Of a stretch of DNA of 35,505 nucleotides, positions 1-19,495 are shown piece after piece. Under the pieces are notes generated by a model. That model was given only the letters and a program-made list of their open reading frames with translations. It was not told the DNA's origin and did not search any database. Source of the stretch: a virus; IMG/VR virus record IMGVR_UViG_3300008517_000070, positions 1 through 35,505 of that record; one strand, written 5' to 3'. How positions within the stretch are numbered: position 1 is the stretch's first letter; each line of letters begins with the position of its first letter. The translations under genes and the position numbers were made by a program.

Positions 1-551
1 GGTTTTATAATCCCATCTTTGCCAACATCAAACCAGGTGGAATGGACAGCCACGCCAAGTGCAATCGGGCCGGTTTCATGCAGGCCCCGCTGGATGAGTC
101 TCATATCCTTTTCAGGGATGGTTAGGCTTCGATATTTTTTGATTCTGAAAGGATACGCTCTGGAAGCAGCTTGCTCATCAGGCTCACCTCTTTTTCCAGG
201 CACATACGGCCATAATTCCTCTGGGCAAATCCCGTGTTTTGCGAGTGCCTTCATTATTCCCCGGATAGTAGTTCCTTCGTACGATTCACCGGGGAATTCA
301 TCCTCCACCTTGGCCCACTCATAAATCCATCTTTCGGAAAAGTCGTATTTCTTGCCGTACTCTCTCCATTCTTGAAACTCTTTTAAACCAGCTCCCATAA
401 ATCCTGCACAGGTTCCCTCATTACCCTGATCCCTGACTTCTGTTTGTTGGCTTGTCCAATTAACTTCCTTCGGCAGATCATATTGAGGAATCGGCACCAT
501 AAGGTCTTTTGTGTTTGGCGGCTCTGGTCGATAACCTAATCTATGATCCAT
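1..551 (-). CDS. Papain-like (C1A-type) cysteine peptidase, N-terminal part, cut by window edge
   Basis: The frame is open from an ATG at 551 to the left edge, about 183 codons with no stop, so the 3' end lies outside the window. A Shine-Dalgarno AAGGA lies about 8 nt before the ATG. The protein contains the papain signature VRDQGNEGTCAGF: Gln42 matches the oxyanion-hole Gln and Cys48 the nucleophile. The catalytic His and Asn of the family come later and are not visible. There is no clear signal peptide or membrane segment. It starts 11 nt after the stop of the TIM-barrel gene, so it is the last visible gene of the radical SAM cassette operon. It could cleave host envelope protein or, by analogy with peptide-maturation loci, trim a modified virion protein; both roles are inference. 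Family confidence is high, role confidence low. Confidence 0.8.
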   Translation of the reverse strand, partial: MDHRLGYRPEPPNTKDLMVPIPQYDLPKEVNWTSQQTEVRDQGNEGTCAGFMGAGLKEFQEWREYGKKYDFSERWIYEWAKVEDEFPGESYEGTTIRGIMKALAKHGICPEELWPYVPGKRGEPDEQAASRAYPFRIKKYRSLTIPEKDMRLIQRGLHETGPIALGVAVHSTWFDVGKDGIIK

Positions 552-562
552 TTTCGGTTTCC

Positions 563-1621
563 TTATATTTTATTAAATAGATTTTTAATCTCCTCATACA
601 TTCTATTATCAGTGGCCGGGCCAAAGTGATTATGGTTCCAAGCCCAGAGGGCAACTCCTATAGTAAATAAATCATACGGCAGAAGGGTATCGAATTGCGC
701 TTGGATTTCCCCTAATGGAACCTCGCTATCATAGTTTCCAGAGCTGTCGGCTGGTTCGCCGCAACACTGGAAAATGAACATAACAGGCTTAGTAATACCC
801 TTTCTGTTCAAGTATTCTCTTTCTTGCCTGCCGACTTCGGCGAGATACGCTAGGGGTTCCTTCCCCCACATCTCGCCAGAGCCATCAAAGGCATAGCAAT
901 CGGGACTAATGAAGTCCATCGCATCAAAGTTTATTTTGTCCCAGTCGCTCGTTCCTCCTGCGAGTGTCTGCGTTACTGGATGGTTATCCCGTGCCTTGAA
1001 GAAGTCGTATATCTCCTTTTGCTGCTCAAAGCTTATATCCCTGTTCCAGAGGTTAGCTTCCTCAATCGGCTGCCAACAGTACAAGGCAGGATGGTTCTTG
1101 CATTTTTCGATAATCTCTGCTACATCATTTTTATTCCAGGAGCCGGTTGCCAGTATTTGGTTATGAACCATACTAGCGATTGAATAATAGACTTTAAGAT
1201 TCGCGTCTCTGGCCCTATCCAAGAAACTAATTCCACTTCGTATTGAATGGGAAAGTTGGAACCTTTGCGGCATTCTCTCAAATTTGCGTAGTCCCAGGTA
1301 TGGAAGCTCATAACTCTGAACAATAGTAATACCGAGATCAGCTATTTTAACGAAATCATCATCAGGCCCCACGCAGAACATCACCCGCTCAGGCCCGATT
1401 TGCGATTCCTTCTCAGGCCAGTCGGTTATATCTGGGCCAATTTCAGGAAACTCATTCTCATTTAGAAATACACGTTTCTGGTAATCCAAATAATCTATCT
1501 CAGTTTCAGCTTTTATCTCGGCACAAATTTCCTTAAAATTATTCCAGTCCCTTATGTGCCTAGCCTTACCCCCTCCCTTCTGAAGATAAAGTTCTGCTCT
1601 TTGCAGAATTTTTCCCTTCAT
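563..1621 (-). CDS. TIM-barrel glycoside-hydrolase-like protein (352 aa)
   Basis: This 352-residue protein looks like a (beta/alpha)8 glycosidase of the GH5/GH-A general type. Visible signs are a segment around residue 180 reading HPALYCWQPIEEAN, like the strand-4 region that carries the acid/base Glu in clan GH-A, a following DFISPDCYAFDG strand, KPVMFIFQCCGEP, and a late GVALWAWNHNH strand rich in Trp and His. No signal peptide is seen. The start at 1621 has a purine-rich AGGGGGGAT just upstream; it overlaps the preceding gene by 56 nt, so a slightly later start is possible. In a phage tail region such a protein could be a sugar-cleaving depolymerase or host-wall enzyme. Substrate and activity cannot be read from sequence, and a catalytically dead barrel is possible. 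Confidence 0.72.
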   Translation of the reverse strand: MKGKILQRAELYLQKGGGKARHIRDWNNFKEICAEIKAETEIDYLDYQKRVFLNENEFPEIGPDITDWPEKESQIGPERVMFCVGPDDDFVKIADLGITIVQSYELPYLGLRKFERMPQRFQLSHSIRSGISFLDRARDANLKVYYSIASMVHNQILATGSWNKNDVAEIIEKCKNHPALYCWQPIEEANLWNRDISFEQQKEIYDFFKARDNHPVTQTLAGGTSDWDKINFDAMDFISPDCYAFDGSGEMWGKEPLAYLAEVGRQEREYLNRKGITKPVMFIFQCCGEPADSSGNYDSEVPLGEIQAQFDTLLPYDLFTIGVALWAWNHNHFGPATDNRMYEEIKNLFNKI

Positions 1622-2159
1622 CTTTTATCCCCCCTTTCTGGAGTGTTTCGAGATACGCCTTGCTTAGCTCGAACGCTGGTGGGGTAAAGCGCTGAACGTT
1701 CCTGAGTCTTTCCGTCAGACTCTTGATAATGTTAATCGACTGGACCAGCGATAAATTCCCTTGGGTAATAGCCGTGATATTTTGGGCTACCTGCACAATG
1801 TCAGGCCGCTTGCCGAAGCTCTTATTCCAGTTGAATGCGAGCAACCGGAACTCAAGCGCCAAATCTCTGAGAATAGGTATTATCGGAGCGTTGATAACCC
1901 TGTTCAGTACCAGGTTGAGCGCCTCCTTGACCTGGGACTTCTCTTTCCCGGTTGCCGGAACTAATTGTTTTTCAGCCGCCTTATCATCCATTCCCTTACG
2001 CATAACGGCAAATCCCTTTTTCACAATTTCCTGCTGTTTCCGGCCCAGGATCATATTAAGATCCTTATGTCCCAGGATGTACTCCAGTTTCTTTTTATTC
2101 CTCTCGTATGCCTTTTTGTTCTTCTCCTCCTCAACGTCTTTCTTTCTCTTGTTTACCAT
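1566..2159 (-). CDS. Helical protein of unknown function in the radical SAM operon (197 aa)
   Basis: I do not recognise a family. The N-terminal 50 residues are a highly charged Lys/Glu-rich helix; the middle (about 75-165) is a predicted all-alpha segment with Leu/Ile heptad-like spacing (VKEALNLVLNRVINAPIIPI, SLVQSINIIKSLTERLRNV). No membrane segment, cysteine or signal peptide is seen. The ATG at 2159 is preceded by GGAGGAG (2167-2173) at 7 nt spacing and overlaps the stop of the upstream radical SAM gene by 29 nt, so it is translated with that operon. It could be a structural tail component or a partner of the two enzymes; neither is shown by the sequence. Confidence 0.7.
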   Translation of the reverse strand: MVNKRKKDVEEEKNKKAYERNKKKLEYILGHKDLNMILGRKQQEIVKKGFAVMRKGMDDKAAEKQLVPATGKEKSQVKEALNLVLNRVINAPIIPILRDLALEFRLLAFNWNKSFGKRPDIVQVAQNITAITQGNLSLVQSINIIKSLTERLRNVQRFTPPAFELSKAYLETLQKGGIKDEGKNSAKSRTLSSEGRG

Positions 2160-3474
2160 TTTTTAGCTCCTCCAAGATTTTCAGGGATATTTGCTTTTCT
2201 TTCCCCAGCCTGTTAAAAATCGCCTGGTATAGGCCGAGCTTCTTATATGTTTCTATCATGGCGGCTACCTTGGCATGGGCGAGCTTGCACACCGAGGGGA
2301 TAGGACTAAAGGGGTCTCCCGTGATCTCGTACATGCTACCCAAACATTGTCCCTGGCAGAGGTACTTAATCGCACAGCTCTCGCACTGAGGCATAGTCTT
2401 GAAATCAAAGGCAATCTCTCCGATAGCCAGCTCAAGATTCTTCGCCCGAATACTTTTGATTGCACCGTTTTTCACCATGAATTTCCCCAATATGAACTGG
2501 TCATACGATTGCCTGTGGCAGGGAACAATAGCCAAATCCCCCAGCCTTACATAAAGACAAGCCTGTAAAGAGCAGCCCAAACCCCGGCCGATCGAGGTGA
2601 GGCAGTTAGTCAAAATGTTATATCCCCTGCCCTTGAAAAGAAAATCAAGATACCGGGTCAAATCTCCGTTGCAGGGCTCCCTGAAAGTCCATTCAACTAG
2701 GAACTGCAAAAAGTTCATATAGTCTCTAATCTGTTCATCAGACCACTCGACATTGCGCACTTCCAACAGGTAAATATTGCCGAAGGGGATACCGAATTCC
2801 CGAAATTTACCCTGGAACCAGAGAAAGTTTTTCTTCCATTCTTCAATCAGTTCAGAGTAGACCATAGGGTGATAACCACAGCGATATTTCGCTCCAAACT
2901 CGAAGCATCTATCATAATACGCATCATCACGCTTCTCAATCCCCGACTTGAACGGCCTGTTGGCTTCGCAATATTTCCCGTCGAAAGAGGCTGACAGGTA
3001 AACAGGGATCTCTACTTCTCTGGAGAAAAGCATCAACTTTTCTACTTTTCTAGTCAGCCTTTCGTTAAGCAGAAAAGTAAAATTAGTCGGTATGACAATC
3101 ATTTTCGGTTTTAATTTAGCTTTACTAAACTTTTTCAAAATCAAATTTAGAGCATCAAAACCTACTTTCTGAAACAGAGGTTCACCAGAGAAAAACTCCA
3201 AATCGGGCGCAAGACTCTTATTAATTAACCAATCTAAAAGCAATTCTAGGTTATGCAGTACGTCTTCCGAGTGGCTTATTTCTTTGGGGTAGAGTTGCTC
3301 GCCGAACTTGGCATAGTAGCAATATTTGCAATCAAGATTACATTTAGCATTAAGCTCGATCTCTAGCCTGCGGAAGTTTACGAACCGCTCATCCTCTTTA
3401 TGCTTCCAGGCGTAAAAGAATGTCCTATCGAAAAAGGATTGTAAAAGCCGGTCATTTTCCTGTTGGAAAGTCAC
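2131..3474 (-). CDS. Radical SAM/SPASM-type peptide-modifying enzyme 2 (447 aa)
   Basis: The 4Fe-4S cluster motif C-x3-C-x2-C is at residues 45-52 (CNLDCKYC), followed by the GGEP-like strand FFSGEP near residue 95. The C-terminal third carries a SPASM-type auxiliary cluster region: C-x2-C-x5-C-x3-C (CESCAIKYLCQGQC), an upstream CHRQ block and a final single Cys. SPASM enzymes typically modify ribosomally made peptides or proteins. I chose the GTG at 3474 over the ATG at 3510 because GGAGGAGG (3481-3488) lies exactly 6 nt before it, and the neighbouring gene has the same arrangement; the ATG has no ribosome site. The gene overlaps the upstream radical SAM stop by 23 nt. The likely substrate is the adjacent tetrad-repeat protein (inference). 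It could alternatively act on a host or cell-wall target. Confidence 0.9.
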   Translation of the reverse strand: MTFQQENDRLLQSFFDRTFFYAWKHKEDERFVNFRRLEIELNAKCNLDCKYCYYAKFGEQLYPKEISHSEDVLHNLELLLDWLINKSLAPDLEFFSGEPLFQKVGFDALNLILKKFSKAKLKPKMIVIPTNFTFLLNERLTRKVEKLMLFSREVEIPVYLSASFDGKYCEANRPFKSGIEKRDDAYYDRCFEFGAKYRCGYHPMVYSELIEEWKKNFLWFQGKFREFGIPFGNIYLLEVRNVEWSDEQIRDYMNFLQFLVEWTFREPCNGDLTRYLDFLFKGRGYNILTNCLTSIGRGLGCSLQACLYVRLGDLAIVPCHRQSYDQFILGKFMVKNGAIKSIRAKNLELAIGEIAFDFKTMPQCESCAIKYLCQGQCLGSMYEITGDPFSPIPSVCKLAHAKVAAMIETYKKLGLYQAIFNRLGKEKQISLKILEELKNGKQEKERR

Positions 3475-4801
3475 AAATTGCCTCCTCCAAAATTTCCTCA
3501 AAAGCACCATTCCCGAAAAGACGAATAAGTGAAACTGGAGCGAAATGAATACATCCTGTATTTAATATGTTCTCCATAGGACAAGACAAGCAAATATTCA
3601 CAAATAAGCCAAAAATAACTGCCAATTCATCATTGAGGTAGTATTTAGAAACTTGACCAGCTAAAGCCAATTCCTTCAGCATAGCCATGATATAGCTAAT
3701 TTTCAGTCTCCAGAAGTCGTGATAATTCCTGAGGACATAATAGAATCTTATTTTTTCTACTTCATCATTTGTATTTACAATGAACTTCTCATTAATGAGC
3801 TTGATTTTGCCTTCCTCAAACAGTGAAACATCCCAATTATCTACTATTTTTTGGGATAAAATACTCTCTATATATTCTGGATAATTGAGGAAAAAAGTCC
3901 GATGACACAAATGAAGGTCATTTTTTATTCCTATACCCAAATTGCTATCCCCACCTGAACAGGTGAACATGGCTGGTTTGGTAGCCAATTCATTCTGATA
4001 TTTCAAAATCCTCTGGAATCTAGTTAGATAAGTATTGGGATATTTCCCTTTTCTTAAATTCCTGAAAAATCTAGCTAACTCCTTCCCATTCTCACTGGTA
4101 TATCTTCCTGGAACGCAAAGGGTCGGTGAGCAGGAGTTGACAAAATTGACTCTGCTATTTTTGTTAGTCTTCTGAAAATCCTTCTCAATCTGACCAAAAT
4201 AATCAAAATATTCCTTGACCTTGTTTGGTTCACTATTTAATAGTCTAATATTTTCCATAGTTAAAGTAGATTTCATCCGAATCTCAACTTTCACTTTCTG
4301 GAGCTTTCTCTTATTTAGACTCATTACTAGCGAATGAATATTTTGGGGAATTCTCTTTGCAGCCCCAGTTACTCGATTAACATCCGTAATATAGGCTGGC
4401 CCATCAAGTGAAATTTGAGGCTCGAAAATGACTTCCTTATTGCAGAATTTATCTATCTGAGATACAGTGTTGACTATTATTTCAGGATTAGTCATCAGAT
4501 TTGTGGAAAATGCAATTTTTTCTAATTTGGGGAATCTTTTGAATAATTTCTGAAAGGGAATATATTCCAGAGTTAGAGTCGGCTCTGCTCCCCAGAGTCC
4601 AAAATAGGTAAGATTTTTGCCATAGACATTTTCTAAACTATCGAGCCAATTATCCTGTTTGAGCTCCTTGATAATCTTTTCATTGAGCAATTTCATAGAA
4701 TTGGATTTAGGCAAATAGCAATATTTGCACTGAAGATTGCAACTTGCAACCGTAAACTGCTCTGCAGAAACCAATCTATTAGTAGCCGTAATGGTGGTCA
4801 C
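3452..4801 (-). CDS. Radical SAM peptide-modifying enzyme 1 (449 aa)
   Basis: The radical SAM motif C-x3-C-x2-C (CNLQCKYC) is at residues 21-28, and a GGEP-like motif (WGAEP) at 70-74. Further conserved-looking cysteines fall at about 281 and 299 (the second in LCHRTFF) and in a C-terminal C-x2-C-x9-C group at 404-417, plus a late Cys near 443, compatible with auxiliary iron-sulfur clusters of the SPASM/twitch kind. The open frame extends upstream to 5050, but that extension overlaps the repeat gene out of frame and is biased junk. I chose GTG 4801 because GGAGGAG (4808-4814) lies 6 nt before it. It overlaps the stop of the tetrad-repeat gene by 23 nt and is itself overlapped by radical SAM 2 by 23 nt, which points to a functional unit. 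Its substrate is probably the neighbouring repeat protein (inference). Confidence 0.88.
   Translation of the reverse strand: MTTITATNRLVSAEQFTVASCNLQCKYCYLPKSNSMKLLNEKIIKELKQDNWLDSLENVYGKNLTYFGLWGAEPTLTLEYIPFQKLFKRFPKLEKIAFSTNLMTNPEIIVNTVSQIDKFCNKEVIFEPQISLDGPAYITDVNRVTGAAKRIPQNIHSLVMSLNKRKLQKVKVEIRMKSTLTMENIRLLNSEPNKVKEYFDYFGQIEKDFQKTNKNSRVNFVNSCSPTLCVPGRYTSENGKELARFFRNLRKGKYPNTYLTRFQRILKYQNELATKPAMFTCSGGDSNLGIGIKNDLHLCHRTFFLNYPEYIESILSQKIVDNWDVSLFEEGKIKLINEKFIVNTNDEVEKIRFYYVLRNYHDFWRLKISYIMAMLKELALAGQVSKYYLNDELAVIFGLFVNICLSCPMENILNTGCIHFAPVSLIRLFGNGAFEEILEEAICDFPTGK
3481..3488 (-). promoter_or_regulatory. Ribosome binding site that sets the start of radical SAM 2
   Basis: On the minus strand this reads GGAGGAGG, then CAATTT, then GTG at 3474. 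It lies inside the end of the upstream radical SAM gene, so the downstream gene is probably translated by coupled re-initiation. Confidence 0.75.
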
Positions 4802-5333
4802 TGTGGACTCCTCCATAATAAGTAACATACTCGCTAGCATAGTGTGGCATATAAAAATCTGTATATTCTGCTGAATCCTGGGTATAATAGACTCCATTGC
4901 GATGATCATTCCTGTCATTAGTATGATATACAGAACGATGTGTGTCGTTATCAACACTGAGCACCCCCGAATCGTAGGATGAATCAACACTAGAATTATG
5001 AGGAGCATCTTCAGACACATTCTCATCGTTGTGGTAGGTTGCGTTATCACCAGTATCTACCCCGCTGTTATGGTCATTCTGGTAAGTCGAGTGCTCGTCG
5101 ACATCATAACCTGAATTGTATCCACTGTTTACACCTGTATTCTCATCGGTGTGGTGCGTAGTATCATGGTTTGTATCGTCCGAAGTATTCTGTGAAGGGA
5201 TATATGTGGTTTTGTCCGCAACGCAGGCTTCATTATCCTTTATCGAATCAAGGTTTGTCCTAATCTCATCAACAACCGCTTTGGTGGTCAAAGCAGAGCC
5301 TTCAGTAATATCTTCATCCCAAACAAAAGACAT
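4779..5333 (-). CDS. Tetrad-repeat fibre-like protein B (184 aa), candidate radical SAM substrate
   Basis: Residues 1-46 form a small non-repetitive head with DEIRTNLDSIKDNEAC, like the NELRTAxD motif seen in many tail-associated proteins and like the head of the neighbouring paralogue. From residue 47 to the end the protein is 34 consecutive four-residue units with no phase slip, of form small/polar-[Y,V,H,E]-[D,N,H]-[S,T,N] (for example GVNS GYNS, PHNS SVDS SYDS). The tail end is rich in Tyr and His (SEYV TYYG GVHS DHHY GY). A single Cys (37) precedes the repeats. No signal peptide. It sits 11 nt after the paralogue and overlaps radical SAM 1. Best guess: a tail-fibre appendage that is enzymatically modified; it could also be just a novel repeat fold. 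Confidence 0.85.
   Translation of the reverse strand: MSFVWDEDITEGSALTTKAVVDEIRTNLDSIKDNEACVADKTTYIPSQNTSDDTNHDTTHHTDENTGVNSGYNSGYDVDEHSTYQNDHNSGVDTGDNATYHNDENVSEDAPHNSSVDSSYDSGVLSVDNDTHRSVYHTNDRNDHRNGVYYTQDSAEYTDFYMPHYASEYVTYYGGVHSDHHYGY
4782..5195 (-). repeat. 34 in-phase tetrapeptide repeats (protein B)
   Basis: The repeat encodes residues 47-184. Twelve-base units vary at DNA level but keep amino-acid phase throughout. Position 2 is mostly Y, V, H, D or E, position 3 mostly D, N, H or Y, position 4 mostly S, T or N. Confidence 0.85.
4808..4814 (-). promoter_or_regulatory. Ribosome binding site that sets the start of radical SAM 1
   Basis: Minus strand GGAGGAG, 6 nt, then GTG at 4801. 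The site is within the last codons of the tetrad-repeat gene, implying coupled translation of substrate candidate and enzyme. Confidence 0.72.
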
Positions 5334-5344
5334 AAATTTCTCTC

Positions 5345-5896
5345 CTAATTTCCGCTGTTATAAGTGCTATTCTGTGCATTATAGACCCCAGTATCATAAG
5401 TCCCAACAGCCGACGCCTCGTGCGAGGAATCGACACTACTATCCTCACCAGAATGGACAGTGGTATCATGTCCTGAATCTACCCCGCTGTTATAGGATTC
5501 CTGAACGCCACTATCATAAGCCCCGTCTACCCCATTATTATAGGAAGAATCATATCCCGAATCCTGACTGCCATGAACTGTTGAACGATGAGGACTGTCT
5601 GCTCCAGTGTATGCAGTGGCATCATCCCCAGTTTTGGCTGTGTCGTTGTCCACTGCGTTATAAGTAGCATCGTGATTGCGGCAATAGTTCTGGTCGTCAG
5701 CGTAGTCTATTGCGGTCCTTAATTCCTGGTAATCTGCGTCGTCTATCTCATCACCAATGCTGACGGGAAGATGTTGCCAATCATACTGACTCAATTCCAA
5801 GTCGGAGTAGACTATATCAATATTAGTTTTGACTTCGTTTTTATGGGCTGCACCATCTAACGTGCCTATAGTAATCGGAGTCCAGTCGAATCCCAT
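5345..5896 (-). CDS. Tetrad-repeat fibre-like protein A (183 aa)
   Basis: This is a paralogue of the next gene. The head has two related segments: residues about 14-28 (DGAAHKNEVKTNIDIV, similar to the AAHxNELRxAxD motif of tail proteins) and 49-72 (DEIDDADYQELRTAIDYADDQNYC), the latter aligning with the head of protein B including the single Cys just before the repeats. Residues 70-181 are 28 four-residue units in one phase, such as GYDS SYNN GVDG AYDS GVQE SYNS GVDS GHDT TVHS, ending in GN. The head is probably the attachment part and the repeats an extended shaft or display surface. It starts 3 nt after the zinc-ribbon fibre gene. Function is not known; modification by the downstream radical SAM enzymes is my inference. 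Confidence 0.85.
   Translation of the reverse strand: MGFDWTPITIGTLDGAAHKNEVKTNIDIVYSDLELSQYDWQHLPVSIGDEIDDADYQELRTAIDYADDQNYCRNHDATYNAVDNDTAKTGDDATAYTGADSPHRSTVHGSQDSGYDSSYNNGVDGAYDSGVQESYNSGVDSGHDTTVHSGEDSSVDSSHEASAVGTYDTGVYNAQNSTYNSGN
5348..5689 (-). repeat. 28 in-phase tetrapeptide repeats (protein A)
   Basis: The repeat encodes residues 70-183. Many units pair into an eight-residue super-repeat G-V-D-S-x-[YH]-[DN]-[ST]. No insertions or deletions break the phase. Confidence 0.85.
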
Positions 5897-5899
5897 TTT

Positions 5900-6997
5900 T
5901 CACCTCAAGGTAATTATCGAATCGATTCTTTTCTTCTCACCAGGATATAGCTTCTCCAGAGCCTTAGCCACGATTGCGCCTAAAGGATTGCCCCTCATTG
6001 CGATCCCCCTAAAATTGCTGCTCATTAGCAAGTCTCCCACAAGTACAGGTCCGACTGCATTAATCTTCAATCGTCCAGAAATTCCTACAGGGGTAAATCC
6101 AGCCTTGATTGCTGCCTTGATATTCTTGTGATTGTCTCCACCTAAGCAAAAACCAAAGGAGTCTGAATGCACTCCTATCACTCGCTTGTCGTTTGCTTTT
6201 ATTGATGGGCAAACCTTGCCATCTTTCCAAATCAGGACATCCCCTGGTTTGGACTTCTCTGAATAAGGCATTAATTCTGCGAGGTCGTTATAAACGGCTC
6301 TCCAAACTTTTCCGTCGTCATCGATAATAGTATAGGTATTATCATCTGCGGCTATTTTCTTAATCAAATTACCCTTCGCTGTCTCAATATCCCCTGATAG
6401 GATTGGAGCATTCTCATGGCCCTCAGCGACCGCGGTAAAATTGGCCTGATTGCTAGTCATCTTTGCCGAGGTGAGCAGCGAGTTTTCAGCATAGGTCAGA
6501 GCCGTCCAGGTTCTTCTGATGAATTGCGGCCCCAAAGCGTAGCCCAATTCGAGATAGCAATTAGGGCACACGGCGGGTGGAGTCCCTATTCCAAGACTGG
6601 AAAGCGTCCAAAGCATAATCCATCCCGGAAAGCCTATACCAAATATCTTCTCTTTCTGGGTAATTTCACACCGGGAGCATCGGATTACCCGGGGTTGCTT
6701 CACGGTGATTTTTTTCCCAACCCTTTTCAGGCATTTGGGACAAACCTCAGGAGTCTTGCCCTCGGAGTCCAAGGCCAAAGGCAGAATTCCCCAGCCGAAA
6801 AATCCAGACCCGGGTCTTTCTTCAGTCTCATGTTTTCCGCAAAATACGCAGTCCACCGTCCTCTTTGGAGTCTGGAATTTCCCGTCTATCTTAGCTAAAT
6901 TCCAAACTGGCTTACCGGCTTTAAGGACATATTTGACCCCCCATTTCTTCCATTTTTCCTCTATCAAACAATTAATTACCTTTCGATTTACTTTCAT
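5900..6997 (-). CDS. Tail-fibre-like protein with two zinc-ribbon-like units and a C-terminal fibre domain (365 aa)
   Basis: The N-terminal half has two tandem, similar Cys units: CxxC at 50-53 paired with CPKC at 86-89, and CSRC at 107-110 paired with CPNC at 144-147, each enclosing a hydrophobic GFFGWGILPLA or GFPGWIMLW segment. The C-terminal half (about 250-365) carries the layout common at phage fibre C-termini: PGDVLIW, RVIGVHSDSFG, TPVGISGRLKINAVGPVLVGDLL, GIAM, GAIVAKALE and a final IITLR. The ATG at 6997 follows GGAGGTAATT. It is probably a tail-tip or fibre protein; zinc binding is suggested by the cysteines only. The hydrophobic centres of the Cys units could make a membrane-interacting hairpin instead. 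Confidence 0.78.
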   Translation of the reverse strand: MKVNRKVINCLIEEKWKKWGVKYVLKAGKPVWNLAKIDGKFQTPKRTVDCVFCGKHETEERPGSGFFGWGILPLALDSEGKTPEVCPKCLKRVGKKITVKQPRVIRCSRCEITQKEKIFGIGFPGWIMLWTLSSLGIGTPPAVCPNCYLELGYALGPQFIRRTWTALTYAENSLLTSAKMTSNQANFTAVAEGHENAPILSGDIETAKGNLIKKIAADDNTYTIIDDDGKVWRAVYNDLAELMPYSEKSKPGDVLIWKDGKVCPSIKANDKRVIGVHSDSFGFCLGGDNHKNIKAAIKAGFTPVGISGRLKINAVGPVLVGDLLMSSNFRGIAMRGNPLGAIVAKALEKLYPGEKKRIDSIITLR

Positions 6998-7239: not shown

Positions 7240-9480
7240 TTAATCTCCCCCCATCATAGGGTTGTAATCTTGGTCTAATAAGCCCAAATAAGCATCATCT
7301 AATACAAATGCCAGTATCTTCTCGTCGCTAATATCCCTGCAGATAAAGTCCACCAAACCCTGGGCAATATCGACGTTCTGGATCTCCTCTACCCTGGCGT
7401 AAATGGGATTAAGATTCTTCAAAAGCTCCGTAACTAGGATTGTGTCTCCCAAACTCAGGAAAATTCCCTTCAAAGTGGAAGTGACAGTGACTTTGATGAG
7501 GGGCTGCTTGTTTTTGTCGACTACCCTCTCGGCGTGCTCCGTTGCGCTGTCAAGGTCCGCGTGCCAGACAACCTTGTCTTCCTCCACGCCGGGATAGGTC
7601 CCAAACTCCGTCTTGCTGGCCTCATCCTCCGCCAGATGGCTGCCCGCCCACTCGTTAATATCCTCGTCCCAGCCGTATCTGCAGCGAAACGAGTTGATCA
7701 GGTTCTCCTTCGTTACGGAAGCATCTATTGCCAGACAATTGCTTCTATTGTAAGATGGCAGAGTGCCAGGTATGAAAGGCGGGATGGGTCGCTTGAACTT
7801 GAATTTCCCATCCTCCCCGATCCAGATATAGCTGCTGGTCAAATCCGCAATCAGCAAAAGGGCGGTAGTAATGTAGTGGCCGGTGAATTTCGCCCGCAGG
7901 GAATATTTTAATGTAGTGCAATCAGTCTTGTAGCTGCTCCAGCTTGTGTAATCAATGTCCGTGTTAGCGGTGCTCGCCGTATTATCCAGCCCCCCGTGGG
8001 TCGTCAATAAATCCCAAGCCATGTCCGCTGGGTTTTGAGGGGTCAGGTATTCCACTGGATTCTCGCCGTTACCCAGTCTTTTCTCTAAGGTGCTCACCAT
8101 CTTATCTCGGATTTTTAAAATAGCCTCAGCTTCGGTATAGGAGACGTCCTCAACCCTCCCCGTGAATAATTCCTTTTCATTAGTGAACCCCAAATCGTCG
8201 GGTAGCTTTATCCCGAGCTGCGCAATAGTGCCAATTTCCGTCCTGTCACTTAAAAACAAATTCCAAATCTGCTCAATATTGGACAGGATGGCAGACCCGA
8301 ACCCCGAGGTCAGCTCTGCAGACCTGGTTATGGTAGAAACATCGTTTAAGTAGTTGGTATAATCCACATCCTTGTGCCTAAACCAAATACCAGCTCTCAC
8401 CATCTGCAGGGAAAGCCTTGCCTCGAATGCGGCGGCGTCGAGTAACATATCCGTTACTGTTTCCAATAATCCCAAAGATTCCTCTAAGGTTAAGGCTCTC
8501 TCAAGAGTAGGAAGGGATTCTAATAAGCCTAAGGACTCGGTGAGAAGAGCATTGATAGCGACTGTCTCATCTTCCTTCAGGGCTAGACTCTCCTCTAAAA
8601 CCAAACCTCTGTCTAAACTGGGTAGGTTTTCCAGTAGAGCTAGGCTTTCTGTGAGAACTTCACCTCTTTCTAATTTTGTTAAGCTCTCAGAAAAAGCCAA
8701 CTTCTCTTCAAGAGTTTCAGTCCAATGTGGAACTATCCGCACCATAGTCACTGGCCTTACCAGTTTCACAGGCCCCGCCCGATAAACTGGGGAATTAGCA
8801 GGTGAGCCGTGATTTCCGTTTCCCGATACGTCTATTACTGAGCTGGCTACGGTTGCAGTCCCTCCATCTGGTTTTTCGTTCATTCTCCAATAGCCAACAA
8901 GACCGTTTACGATATTATCATTACCTCGGGCATAGTGAAATGCCTGAATTTCTGCTAAGGTTAAATGTCTGTTGTACAACCTGACAATCAGTTCTCCATC
9001 AAATAAACTTGCGGCAACACCTCCCCAGTTATGAGCACCTAATAACATATTATTAGGAAAATTGGCAAAATTATCAGGAGTCTCTTGATTGGCATAGTTT
9101 ACAGCTTTTGACACAGCATCGAGATATACAGCGACAGTGTCATTAGGGCCATCAAAATTCAATATAGCCGTATGCCAGTTCCCATCGCAGACTCCAACTG
9201 CTCCAGTATTTCCATTTAGAGCATTCCCATCTTCATCTTTTAGATAAAAATGTATCACATTCGCTAGGACTTTTTCATTTACATAATCATAATTAAAGCC
9301 TCCCCACAATGAAGTATTATTACCAGCTGCGCCAGTGCCAAAATAGACTTGAGAACCGATCGTAAAACTTGTCTTAACATGCATAGCGATGCAAGGCTTA
9401 TTGGTTGCCATCTCCGAGCCAAAATTACCTAATGTGCCAACGTCCACATACTGGTCAATTCCATCAAATTCTAATGCCAT
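7240..9480 (-). CDS. Tail hub/receptor protein: LamG-like lectin domain, ESL-repeat linker, tail-hub domain (746 aa)
   Basis: Residues 1-240 resemble a LamG/concanavalin-like jelly roll: MALEFDGIDQYVDVG at the start, DGNWHTAILNFDG in the middle, LFDGELIVRLYNRHLTLAEIQAFH and GLVGYWRMNE later; such domains bind sugars. Residues about 253-345 are a linker of ESLALLE/ESLGLLE repeats. Residues about 360-746 (RAGIWFRHKDVDYTNYL, FTGRVEDVSYTEAEAILKIRDK, then a beta-rich end) look like the central tail-hub/baseplate protein that follows the tape measure in siphophages. Its position three to five genes after the tape measure fits. It probably combines host recognition with tail-tip architecture. The domain order, lectin first, is unusual. 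Confidence 0.78.
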   Translation of the reverse strand: MALEFDGIDQYVDVGTLGNFGSEMATNKPCIAMHVKTSFTIGSQVYFGTGAAGNNTSLWGGFNYDYVNEKVLANVIHFYLKDEDGNALNGNTGAVGVCDGNWHTAILNFDGPNDTVAVYLDAVSKAVNYANQETPDNFANFPNNMLLGAHNWGGVAASLFDGELIVRLYNRHLTLAEIQAFHYARGNDNIVNGLVGYWRMNEKPDGGTATVASSVIDVSGNGNHGSPANSPVYRAGPVKLVRPVTMVRIVPHWTETLEEKLAFSESLTKLERGEVLTESLALLENLPSLDRGLVLEESLALKEDETVAINALLTESLGLLESLPTLERALTLEESLGLLETVTDMLLDAAAFEARLSLQMVRAGIWFRHKDVDYTNYLNDVSTITRSAELTSGFGSAILSNIEQIWNLFLSDRTEIGTIAQLGIKLPDDLGFTNEKELFTGRVEDVSYTEAEAILKIRDKMVSTLEKRLGNGENPVEYLTPQNPADMAWDLLTTHGGLDNTASTANTDIDYTSWSSYKTDCTTLKYSLRAKFTGHYITTALLLIADLTSSYIWIGEDGKFKFKRPIPPFIPGTLPSYNRSNCLAIDASVTKENLINSFRCRYGWDEDINEWAGSHLAEDEASKTEFGTYPGVEEDKVVWHADLDSATEHAERVVDKNKQPLIKVTVTSTLKGIFLSLGDTILVTELLKNLNPIYARVEEIQNVDIAQGLVDFICRDISDEKILAFVLDDAYLGLLDQDYNPMMGGD
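8446..8724 (-). repeat. ESL-type linker repeats inside the hub protein
   Basis: Repeated units such as LTESLALLENLP, LEESLALKED, LTESLGLLESLP and LEESLGLLE occur over residues about 253-345. Unit spacing is about 20 residues with the short ESLxLLE core; probably helical. Confidence 0.7.
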
Positions 9481-17281: not shown

Positions 17282-17686
17282 CTACTTAGATGTTTCGACT
17301 TTAATACGATATTCAAGTATCATATGAAAACGATTGTTCTCATCCTCATATAACAGCCTCGGGGGGCCTTGCCTCTGGCAAAAGTAAGCAGAAGCTCCCA
17401 CCTCAAGGTCTGCTTCGTCCATCTCTTCTGTTATTTGCTTGCTTATATCCCCGCACTCCTTTGCAGAGTTAGAGTCGCTAAAGATGTCTATCTGGCAGAG
17501 AGCCTCATCCTTCCATTCGGTAAAACTATCCTCATTACTTCCTGTGACTATCCAGTAGCAGACGTAGGGATAAGCTGTGCCCTGTGGGGCTTTATAGTGA
17601 TAAACTCCTGTAACAAGATTTGTTACATCTGTAACATTCAAGGCATTATAAATTCCCGTATTTAGGGCATTTATGTCAAGACTCAT
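17282..17686 (-). CDS. Tail terminator / tail completion protein, DUF3168-like (134 aa)
   Basis: Features shared with gpU/DUF3168 proteins include an N-terminal helix with IYNALN, then VTGVYHYKAPQGTAYPYVCYWI (the xxPxGxxxPYVxxxI pattern), a conserved-looking LCQIDIFSDS strand and a C-terminal beta strand RFHMILEYRIKVE. Context (ahead of the major tail protein) fits a ring protein that caps the tail tube. It overlaps the upstream cytidylyltransferase stop by 11 nt, showing that the sugar cassette is transcribed together with tail genes. Confidence 0.8.
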   Translation of the reverse strand: MSLDINALNTGIYNALNVTDVTNLVTGVYHYKAPQGTAYPYVCYWIVTGSNEDSFTEWKDEALCQIDIFSDSNSAKECGDISKQITEEMDEADLEVGASAYFCQRQGPPRLLYEDENNRFHMILEYRIKVETSK

Positions 17687-18107
17687 TTATGTCCTCTATT
17701 ATCCTGTCTGTCATTTGCTCTTTTATCCTGGTGGTAGAAATCCCCTCGGTATAGGGAAGAATTACAAACCTACCTCTTTCGAGCATATATTTCTTATATC
17801 TTTGCTGCCCTTCTAATTTACCCCAATCTCCGCCCACTACTAATATGTCCACACTTAACTCCCCTAATAATTCAGTTATATCCAGCTTTGAATAAGGCAC
17901 GGTTAAATCAACATATCTAATAGCGTCTATAATCCTTTTTCTTTGTCTATAAGGAATAATTGCCTTTTTGCCCTTATAGCTTTCTATTAGCTCATCAGTA
18001 GCAATTCCCACAATCAGCTTATCACCCAATCCCTTTGCTTTCTCCAAAAGGTTGAGATGTCCTATATGGAAGAGATCCCAGACTCCGAATGTAGCAATTA
18101 TTGTCAT
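17676..18107 (-). CDS. Cytidylyltransferase of the TagD/glycerol-3-phosphate type (143 aa)
   Basis: The protein begins MTIIATFGVWDLFHIGHLNLL, with the HxGH nucleotide-binding motif at residues 14-17, and has the second family signature ISTTRI near its end. It is expected to join CTP and a phosphorylated alcohol (glycerol-3-phosphate or similar) to give a CDP-activated donor. I chose ATG 18107 because AGAAGG lies 7 nt upstream and it overlaps the previous stop as ATGA; an upstream in-frame start would add 11 poor residues. Size matches TagD-like enzymes. It follows a fusion containing a LicD-type phosphotransferase, which uses CDP-alcohol donors, so both probably work in one pathway. Exact substrate unknown. 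Confidence 0.88.
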   Translation of the reverse strand: MTIIATFGVWDLFHIGHLNLLEKAKGLGDKLIVGIATDELIESYKGKKAIIPYRQRKRIIDAIRYVDLTVPYSKLDITELLGELSVDILVVGGDWGKLEGQQRYKKYMLERGRFVILPYTEGISTTRIKEQMTDRIIEDINES

Positions 18108-19495
18108 ATTCTGGCCTTCTTTTTTTCTGGCACTTGCCAATTCCCATACATAAATTCAAGATATTCCTCAACTCTTGCAGGAACATTAAATGCCCTACCC
18201 TTATATGCTACTGTCCTCCCTAGTTCTAAGAATGCCTTATGCTCTGGGGCAACAGAATACCAAACATCAATCAGAACCCCTCTTTTAATAAAATGAACAT
18301 GGGGTAAGTGATTCTGGGGTTCTCTGTCCGTAATTACATAACTTCGCTTAAAGGCCCCTTCTTCCAATTCTTCAAAGAACCTATTCCGCTCCTCTTCTGA
18401 GCATGTTACACCAACATCTATATCGTTATCTCCCTTTATATAGCCATTATCCCTTACCAAACCCAAGCACGTGCCGTAAACTAGAAAATATGTAATCCCT
18501 GTTTTTTTAGCTATATCATCAAATTCAAAGAGACATTTATCCACTTCCTTTGGGTGCTTAACTAGCTCAAAGGTCACACTTTCCATAATCTTTCTTTCTT
18601 CTTCTACTGCCTTTTTTAACATCTCACCATACCTATCCCAGGCTTTTGACTGCTCCGACCCCATAGGACTGAAATTCAGCGGCCATCCTCCCAGAAGGAA
18701 GAGGGCTGTTTCCCTGTCAACCGTCCATATATCCTTAATCTCTGTATTAATCCCAAACCCAACATACCACTCCAGCATCTCAGTGGGCCTGAACCTAAGC
18801 TCAACTTCTTCAGGCAATTCCCACTCCTTCATCTCAGGCATAACGTCGGGGAAGTTATAGCAGAGTCGTTGAACGAAGGTCTTTTCCCCTGCGTCTTTTG
18901 TGGTCAATCCCTCCTGGCAGATATGATCTCTCTCTTCTACTCTGGCTCTCCTGATATGGATTACCCTGGACTTAGAACAGTGCGCGAATTTCCCCCAACC
19001 CACGCTGCGGACAGTAAGCTCCACATCACACCAGTAATGGACGTAGTCAGGGTGGAATATATTCCCCTTGAGGTATTTTTCTACATACTTGCGACTAATA
19101 AGCCCGTGGGGGGCGAGTCTGTCGTCGAACTCATCGGCAAAGCTCACAAGACCCATCCCATCGGGGAACGACTCGTGGAAGGTTGACACCGCCTCAGTCA
19201 ACCAGTTACGGTTGACTTCCACGTCATCAGCGAGGAAGACAATTAAAGGAGAATCTGTTTTGTGATAACCATAATTGATTTTCCCGACATACATCTCCCG
19301 TTTTTTCTTTATCAGAATTCTCACATCATCAAAAGGAAGTTGTATTATAACTGCTAGCGACCCAGGATCGTCTTTATCGACAATCACCACAACCTCATAA
19401 TCAGGATAAACCGTATTCTCAAAGAGCTTAGTTAGGCACTTTGCCAGTTTTTCATGGCGCTGGCGCGTGGGGATTAGGATTGACACTTTTTCCAT
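18104..19495 (-). CDS. Glycosyltransferase family 2 fused to a LicD-type phosphotransferase (463 aa)
   Basis: Residues 1-210 are a GT-A glycosyltransferase: VSILIPTRQRHEKL at the start, VVVIVDKDDPGS, and the DXD-like LADDVEVNRNW at 88-98. Residues about 320-455 match the LicD/fukutin nucleotidyltransferase-like fold: YGTCLGLVRDNGYIKGDNDIDVGV (GTxLGxxR at 341-348, DNDID at 356-360), a further acidic strand GVLIDVWY and a C-terminal YLEFMYGNW. The first half would move a sugar, the second would transfer a phospho-alcohol from a CDP donor made by the next gene. The ATG overlaps the upstream gene stop by 1 nt (TAATG). No membrane segment. The target could be a virion protein or a host surface glycan; sequence does not decide. 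Confidence 0.87.
   Translation of the reverse strand: MEKVSILIPTRQRHEKLAKCLTKLFENTVYPDYEVVVIVDKDDPGSLAVIIQLPFDDVRILIKKKREMYVGKINYGYHKTDSPLIVFLADDVEVNRNWLTEAVSTFHESFPDGMGLVSFADEFDDRLAPHGLISRKYVEKYLKGNIFHPDYVHYWCDVELTVRSVGWGKFAHCSKSRVIHIRRARVEERDHICQEGLTTKDAGEKTFVQRLCYNFPDVMPEMKEWELPEEVELRFRPTEMLEWYVGFGINTEIKDIWTVDRETALFLLGGWPLNFSPMGSEQSKAWDRYGEMLKKAVEEERKIMESVTFELVKHPKEVDKCLFEFDDIAKKTGITYFLVYGTCLGLVRDNGYIKGDNDIDVGVTCSEEERNRFFEELEEGAFKRSYVITDREPQNHLPHVHFIKRGVLIDVWYSVAPEHKAFLELGRTVAYKGRAFNVPARVEEYLEFMYGNWQVPEKKKARI

Follow-up and report, generated by a model that had tools for sequence, protein, structure and literature searches.

The left end of IMG/VR virus record IMGVR_UViG_3300008517_000070, analysed here over its whole 35,505 bases (the window), carries a compact cassette of five genes encoding two tetrad-repeat proteins (T1 and T2), two radical S-adenosylmethionine (SAM) enzymes (R1 and R2) and a helical partner protein (H). 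It is probably a phage protein-maturation cassette, in which R1 and R2 modify the tetrads of the tail-fibre-associated T1 and T2. Since the enzyme pair is consistently found with tetrad proteins near tail-fibre genes across diverse phages, phages probably modify their own tail repeats.

The window holds a tailed-phage late operon on the minus strand, starting with HNH/terminase genes on the right and reaching the tail genes on the left. The left-end gene order is T1, T2, R1, R2, H, a TIM-barrel-like protein and a papain-like peptidase, all on the minus strand, and every gene named in an earlier note made from the sequence alone is present. Window genes were named by reading unless a search match is given. 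The features of the cassette are as follows.

5345..5896, minus strand: T1, tetrad-repeat protein of 183 amino acids; two N-terminal W-x-I-G-x-I-E-N-D modules (residues 1–71), conserved Cys72, then tetrads
5345..5683, minus strand: tetrad region of T1, from Cys72; family consensus [YHDV]-[DNY]-[STG]-[TGS]
4779..5333, minus strand: T2, tetrad-repeat protein of 184 amino acids; one N-terminal module, Cys37, then tetrads
4779..5225, minus strand: tetrad region of T2, from Cys37
3452..4801, minus strand: R1, radical SAM enzyme of 449 amino acids; GTG start after GGAGG; reduced auxiliary-cluster Cys set
2131..3474, minus strand: R2, radical SAM/SPASM enzyme; GTG start after GGAGGAGG; complete 7-Cys SPASM
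1566..2159, minus strand: H, helical partner protein of 197 amino acids; helical by inspection; no known family

The program-listed open reading frame (ORF) of R2 opens at ATG 3510, 36 nt upstream of the preferred GTG. Coding regions overlap by 23 nt (T2/R1), 23 nt (R1/R2) and 29 nt (R2/H), a layout typical of translational coupling. Promoter- and terminator-like sites occur in the window in about the number expected by chance.

Linkage of the enzymes with tetrad-repeat proteins

Among IMG/VR and GTDB contigs, scans identified 42 non-redundant radical SAM loci, the window included, which lie mostly on viral contigs, span three genetic codes and have R1 identities of 19–80%. Both R1 and R2 are present in all 42 loci, and at least one tetrad protein is encoded on the same strand within 4.5 kb in 39 of them (two or more in 31). 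Among ~1,340 ORFs farther from the radical SAM genes there is no tetrad protein, bar four T genes in two loci found with a T seed (L056 and L063); the L056 contig stops shortly past T2, and the L063 contig carries at its edge an R1-like fragment (19.6 bits) that is uncounted in the linkage tally. Because many of these T proteins were in its training set, the sensitivity of the tetrad model is partly circular, whereas the far-ORF result and the held-out tests given below are not. H is found in 39 of the 42 loci, being undetected in L029, L049 and L062. Gene order varies while the set is kept, with T-T-R1-R2-H, R1-H-T-T-R2-H, H-R1-R2-T-T and R1-R2-H-T-T arrangements all occurring, and the distances of R1 and R2 co-vary (Mantel r 0.855, 0/5000 permutations).

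A reverse scan seeded with the T1 N-terminal domain alone returned six known loci together with L056, L062 and L063. Radical SAM genes lie next door in L062 and L063, with L056 as the exception. The earlier note had stated that its idea would fall if homologues of the radical SAM genes consistently occurred without repeat proteins; the tetrad proteins in 39 loci and the return of the T1-seeded scan to radical SAM loci are the opposite of that pattern. Together with the maturase-like character of the enzymes, these results support the note's central proposal of a phage-borne protein-modification locus that links tetrad proteins with two radical SAM enzymes.

The set looks viral: two cassette-bearing metagenome-assembled genomes (MAGs) were compared with 284 and 292 further genomes sampled from their phyla, and none of these has an R2 match at E ≤ 1e-40. 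A scan with a single R2 protein returned nothing, and alignment-based scans returned dozens of loci. The INPHARED phages gave no match to the window R1, R2 or T2, nor to R2 and T2 of L017, and no relatives were found for the window TerL. Radical SAM matches in Campylobacter and Salmonella phages (~22–30% identity) were not counted, with no convincing tetrad protein near the radical SAM genes in the two loci read. Distant radical SAM genes are carried by the cultured Campylobacter phage CP220 (L050) and phage SEGD1 (L051), the latter with two adjacent genes (gp166/gp167). Judging by coding density and in-frame stops, TGA is apparently read as sense in L019, L022 and L025 and TAG in L026, L038 and L049, and the cassette is kept in these loci. 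An expanded cassette occupies positions 1340–8768 of L062, where four tetrad proteins flank R2-like, glycosyltransferase-like and R1-like genes.

The tetrad periodicity of T1 and T2 is far beyond chance. For these proteins and their relatives, a cyclic hidden Markov model (HMM) gains 2506 nats over composition at period 4, compared with 36–385 nats at periods 2, 3, 5, 6 and 7 (36 nats at period 3); the gain at period 8 is 2765 nats. With the window and its three nearest relatives left out of training, the window T1 and T2 score 14.2 and 13.3 standard deviations above composition-matched shuffles in the period-4 model (0/500), and are at chance in period-3 and period-5 models with the same held-out training. 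Both the HMM gain and the shuffle test thus uphold the tetrad-repeat character that had been ascribed to the two paralogous proteins. T proteins generally show higher identity at lags 8 and 16 than at lag 4, which hints at an 8- or 16-residue super-period.

Across the family (n = 1,692), the tetrad positions are a = Y/H/D/V, b = D/N/Y, c = S/T/G/A and d = T/G/S. Position a is Y or H in 40% and elsewhere mostly D, V, E or N; position b is Y in 17% and Cys in 6%, with Cys rare at other positions. The T proteins range from about 94 to 470 amino acids and have long repeat tracts. A conserved Cys follows the N-terminal module(s) in nearly all of them, and it falls in tetrad phase b in 50/50 T proteins whose analysed repeat tract starts with it. 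In the AlphaFold2 model of T1, residues 1–70 are mostly helical with block predicted local distance difference test (pLDDT) values of 83–95, and residues 83–183 are nearly all below 50. This model, in which the tetrads are not modelled, had no match in the PDB or BFVD.

The surroundings of the T proteins suggest tail fibres. The C-terminal part of the gene directly upstream of the window T1 is 48% identical to that of the gene in the same place in L011, a fibre gene that matches Peptidase_G2 (IMC domain). Matches upstream of the cassette elsewhere include central tail fibre J (L010), tail fibre proteins (L026) and a virion structural protein (L041). In the T1 of L041 (6956–8191), a LamG lectin domain separates the two N-terminal modules, and L009 has tetrads joined to a larger tail-like protein. 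The phage tail setting described in the earlier note is supported by the fibre-gene neighbours, the LamG domain inside one T1 and the tetrad fusion. Repeats of a different, collagen-like type (SGYSG) are found in genes adjoining the cassette in L016 (2–4008) and L018 (2–7163).

Enzyme class and nearest known systems

R1 and R2 belong to the radical SAM superfamily, and the triad Cys of the CX3CX2C motif are present in 39/39 homologues of each. Matches to PF04055 fall below the gathering score (R1 24.3, R2 21.6, cutoff 29.5). R1 has the triad C21/C25/C28 and the auxiliary residues C281 and C299 (both 39/39) and C407 (37/39). The SPASM Cys of R2 are C313, C331, C376-x2-C379-x5-C385-x3-C389 and C408, each in 39/39, so all ten Cys (triad plus seven SPASM) are kept in every homologue. 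R2 scores 29.6 bits against TIGR04085 (cutoff 27) and carries the SPASM signature; R1 lacks the 7-Cys signature and TIGR04085 is not among the matches listed for the window protein. The earlier note had given both enzymes a radical SAM motif and a SPASM-like Cys set. The motif stands for both and the Cys set is complete in R2, whereas R1 has three auxiliary Cys.

The AlphaFold2 model of R1 (pLDDT 91) is matched best in Foldseek by anSME 4k37 and then ChlB 9gm3. Its nearest folds are the protein or peptide modifiers anSME, ChlB, SuiB and EpeE, with BlsE and viperin-like matches among them. By profile, the nearest solved sequences are 5wgg ('Radical SAM domain protein'), which we take to be CteB, 8vpo and ChlB, and for R1 also anSME. 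PapB is matched by 26/26 R2 and 24/24 R1 members scanned, and other peptide maturases by most. The window R1 and R2 score far below every named family cutoff, and the sole model passed is the generic SPASM domain, by R2. As judged by these comparisons, R1 and R2 are nearest to peptide- or protein-modifying maturases and lie outside every named family tested. Membership of both enzymes in an unrelated small-molecule pathway, which the earlier note had set as a second test, is not what the searches indicate, as the nearest named families of both are peptide or protein maturases.

PapB (NF047865) is the best NCBIfam match for both enzymes, at 56.8 bits for R2 and 40.6 bits for R1 against a cutoff of 340. 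PapB is reported to link Cys with Asp or Glu (PMC9413430), whereas such Cys/Asp pairing was not found in the T proteins, where Cys makes up only 6% of one tetrad position. R1's next best matches in sequence and fold are cyclophane maturases (GrrM/OscB, YhhB, AmcB) and ChlB, but its scores are 40.3 bits vs. 310 for GrrM, 33.2 vs. 445 for YhhB and 34.7 vs. 425 for AmcB, and the aromatic-x-x motif of cyclophane synthases fits just part of the T tetrads. The best fold match of R1, anSME (4k36–4k39), modifies a residue in a protein. It differs in scoring 33.9/37.6 bits against a cutoff of 349, and no sulfatase was noticed in the loci.

Two radical SAM enzymes accompany a repeat protein in the His-Xaa-Ser system (HxsA/HxsB/HxsC/HxsD) as well. 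The parallel drawn by the earlier note did not extend to family membership in the profile search it called for: HxsB is matched at 28.4 bits by R2 and 20.6 bits by R1 against a cutoff of 370, HxsC and HxsD are not among the matches listed, and the phage repeats have period 4 rather than the period 3 of HxS triplets. In a divergent locus on a 158-kb viral contig (L048; 5713–6453 and 7502–16072), R1, R2 and H lie near a His/Ser-repeat protein, with HxsA models matched below cutoff, and a second radical SAM pair and further radical SAM-like genes are also present. This locus is a possible bridge to the His-Xaa-Ser system.

A precedent for the repeat is the Tvg system of Halomonas anticariensis (TvgA/TvgB), in which a radical SAM enzyme repeatedly modifies a TVGG tetrad precursor, converting Val to cyclopropylglycine (Kostenko et al. 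2022, PMC9062424). It indicates that one radical SAM enzyme can act along a tetrad repeat, and the phage cassette likewise encodes a tetrad-repeat precursor with a radical SAM enzyme. Tvg differs in being a bacterial cluster with one radical SAM enzyme, a dioxygenase, two membrane-associated transporter proteins and another tetrad (PMC9062424), whereas the phage cassette has two radical SAM enzymes, two long precursors, the H protein and a phage tail context. Thuricin CD is described as having two radical SAM enzymes and two precursors (PMC12093266). This pairing resembles the cassette, although the product there is a small two-component sactibiotic with thioether cross-links. The general kind, a SPASM-type maturase with a repetitive precursor, is already known. 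The open literature searched yielded no account of this family (enzymes, precursors and helper), of its phage tail setting or of how widely it occurs, and searches on phage tails with radical SAM or SPASM maturation returned nothing relevant, most subscription papers being outside their coverage.

Proposed maturation of fibre repeats and competing explanations

Known roles of radical SAM maturases concern small peptides, cofactors and a few enzymes. In the mechanism proposed here, T1 and T2 would be tail-fibre-associated proteins whose folded N-terminal modules act as both a leader-like recognition part and an attachment part, ending at the conserved Cys in register with the long tetrad run. 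R1 and R2 would make 5'-deoxyadenosyl radicals and act repeatedly along the tetrads, with H as a putative partner that displays the substrate or assists R1 and R2. The resulting fibre, hardened or otherwise altered chemically, would enter the particle with its leader still in place and with no export step. Candidate chemistries are intra-repeat C–C or C–X cross-links of the cyclophane kind, altered Val or Ser side chains, or D-residues. On a broader scale, the balance is even for a widespread form of virion maturation in which the enzyme pair modifies tens of repeats per fibre protein to give a covalently stiffened or D-residue-containing fibre; this even judgement extends to its reach across phages of mostly uncultured hosts, phages with reassigned stops and others in archaeal MAGs. 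If true, the cassette would add a new layer to phage receptor-binding biology, with radical SAM maturases acting on long tail repeat proteins, and would bring in a new class of radical enzymes that read repeats, act at many sites and have useful chemistry.

Several observations weigh against this mechanism. Positions a and b tolerate many residues and show no strong pairing (excess mutual information ≤ 0.1 bit), and residue-pair coupling within tetrads gives no clear cross-link signature. The tolerance and weak pairing argue against a single obligatory side-chain pair; the reaction may be epimerisation, or side-chain cross-linking or oxidation confined to some of the tetrads. Homology does not reveal the reaction, as scores lie far below every named maturase cutoff. 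A scoring tetrad protein is missing from three radical SAM loci. Of these, L019 starts within R1, L048 encodes the His/Ser-repeat protein in its place and the candidates in L049 are all short and degenerate. The tally of 39 overstates the linkage by one locus, because the match in L021 is a different, 654-residue protein, the module-bearing proteins of that locus being degenerate. L047 and L049 are also not obviously flanked by tail genes.

Epimerisation is a sub-case of the tetrad-modification reading rather than exclusive of it. R1 and R2 would convert fixed tetrad positions to D-amino acids, which would make the repeats resistant to proteases or let them adopt a regular fold beyond the reach of AlphaFold modelling. 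The residue tolerance at a and b with weak pairing, the presence of the epimerase EpeE among the structural neighbours of R1 and the predicted disorder of the tetrads all fit, but anSME, ChlB and SuiB rank above EpeE and R2 has the full SPASM Cys set, like cross-linking and oxidising maturases. This chemistry is accordingly given a minor though real chance. It is rather unlikely that the cassette instead encodes a ribosomally synthesised and post-translationally modified peptide (RiPP), with T1 and T2 as precursors of a released small product, bacteriocin-like or host-acting, matured by R1 and R2. The precursor-plus-radical SAM architecture and the RiPP maturases as nearest families would suit it, as would thuricin CD, where two radical SAM enzymes are reported to act on a two-component product (PMC12093266). 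Against this, the T proteins are large (about 94–470 amino acids) with long repeat tracts, most loci lie among tail or fibre genes, and T-type repeats are joined to LamG or a tail-like protein. The set shared between loci consists of T, T, R1, R2 and H; neither a protease nor an exporter was noticed as a recurrent companion, other proteases and transporters not having been searched systematically.

The repeats could also be ordinary unmodified fibre repeats, with R1 and R2 as auxiliary metabolic enzymes that merely share the operon. Metabolic radical SAM genes do occur in phages: Campylobacter phages CP220 and CPt10 carry 11 and 12 radical SAM genes, which their authors attribute to host metabolism (PMC2853527). 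No tetrad protein lies near the distant radical SAM locus read in CP220, whereas in the cassette loci the 42/42 enzyme pairing, the 39/42 linkage with a tetrad protein, the shuffled order with the set kept and the T1-seeded scan that leads to radical SAM loci make this explanation quite improbable. Still more doubtful is a reading in which the target of R1 and R2 is H or a different virion protein and not the tetrads. In its favour, R1 and R2 lie apart in L014 and L044, and there each radical SAM gene is trailed by an H gene. H is nonetheless poorly conserved, lacks any invariant residue and goes undetected in three loci, while the tetrads hold their phase strictly. H had no consistent match to a Pfam or PHROG family.

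Genes outside the cassette

The window genes that flank the cassette are as follows.

3..551, minus strand: papain-like peptidase, truncated at the contig end; outside the cassette and not conserved with it
563..1621, minus strand: TIM-barrel-like protein, downstream; outside the cassette and not conserved with it
5900..6997, minus strand: fibre-like protein directly upstream of T1; context, outside the cassette
7240..9480, minus strand: tail-type protein with LamG-like lectin domain (Laminin_G_3 26.8 bits, cutoff 27.6); context

The TIM-barrel-like protein and the papain-like peptidase were rejected as cassette members, as no homologue of either was found in any related locus examined. The former has a sub-threshold GH99 match only, and the latter matches Pfam PF00112 (E 5e-8). 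Trimming by this peptidase, which the earlier note had suggested, is not a conserved feature because its gene has no homologue in related loci. Between the head and tail genes, a glycosyltransferase-like protein with a LicD-like C-terminal part and a cytidylyltransferase-like protein were recognised by reading at window positions 17676–19495 on the minus strand.

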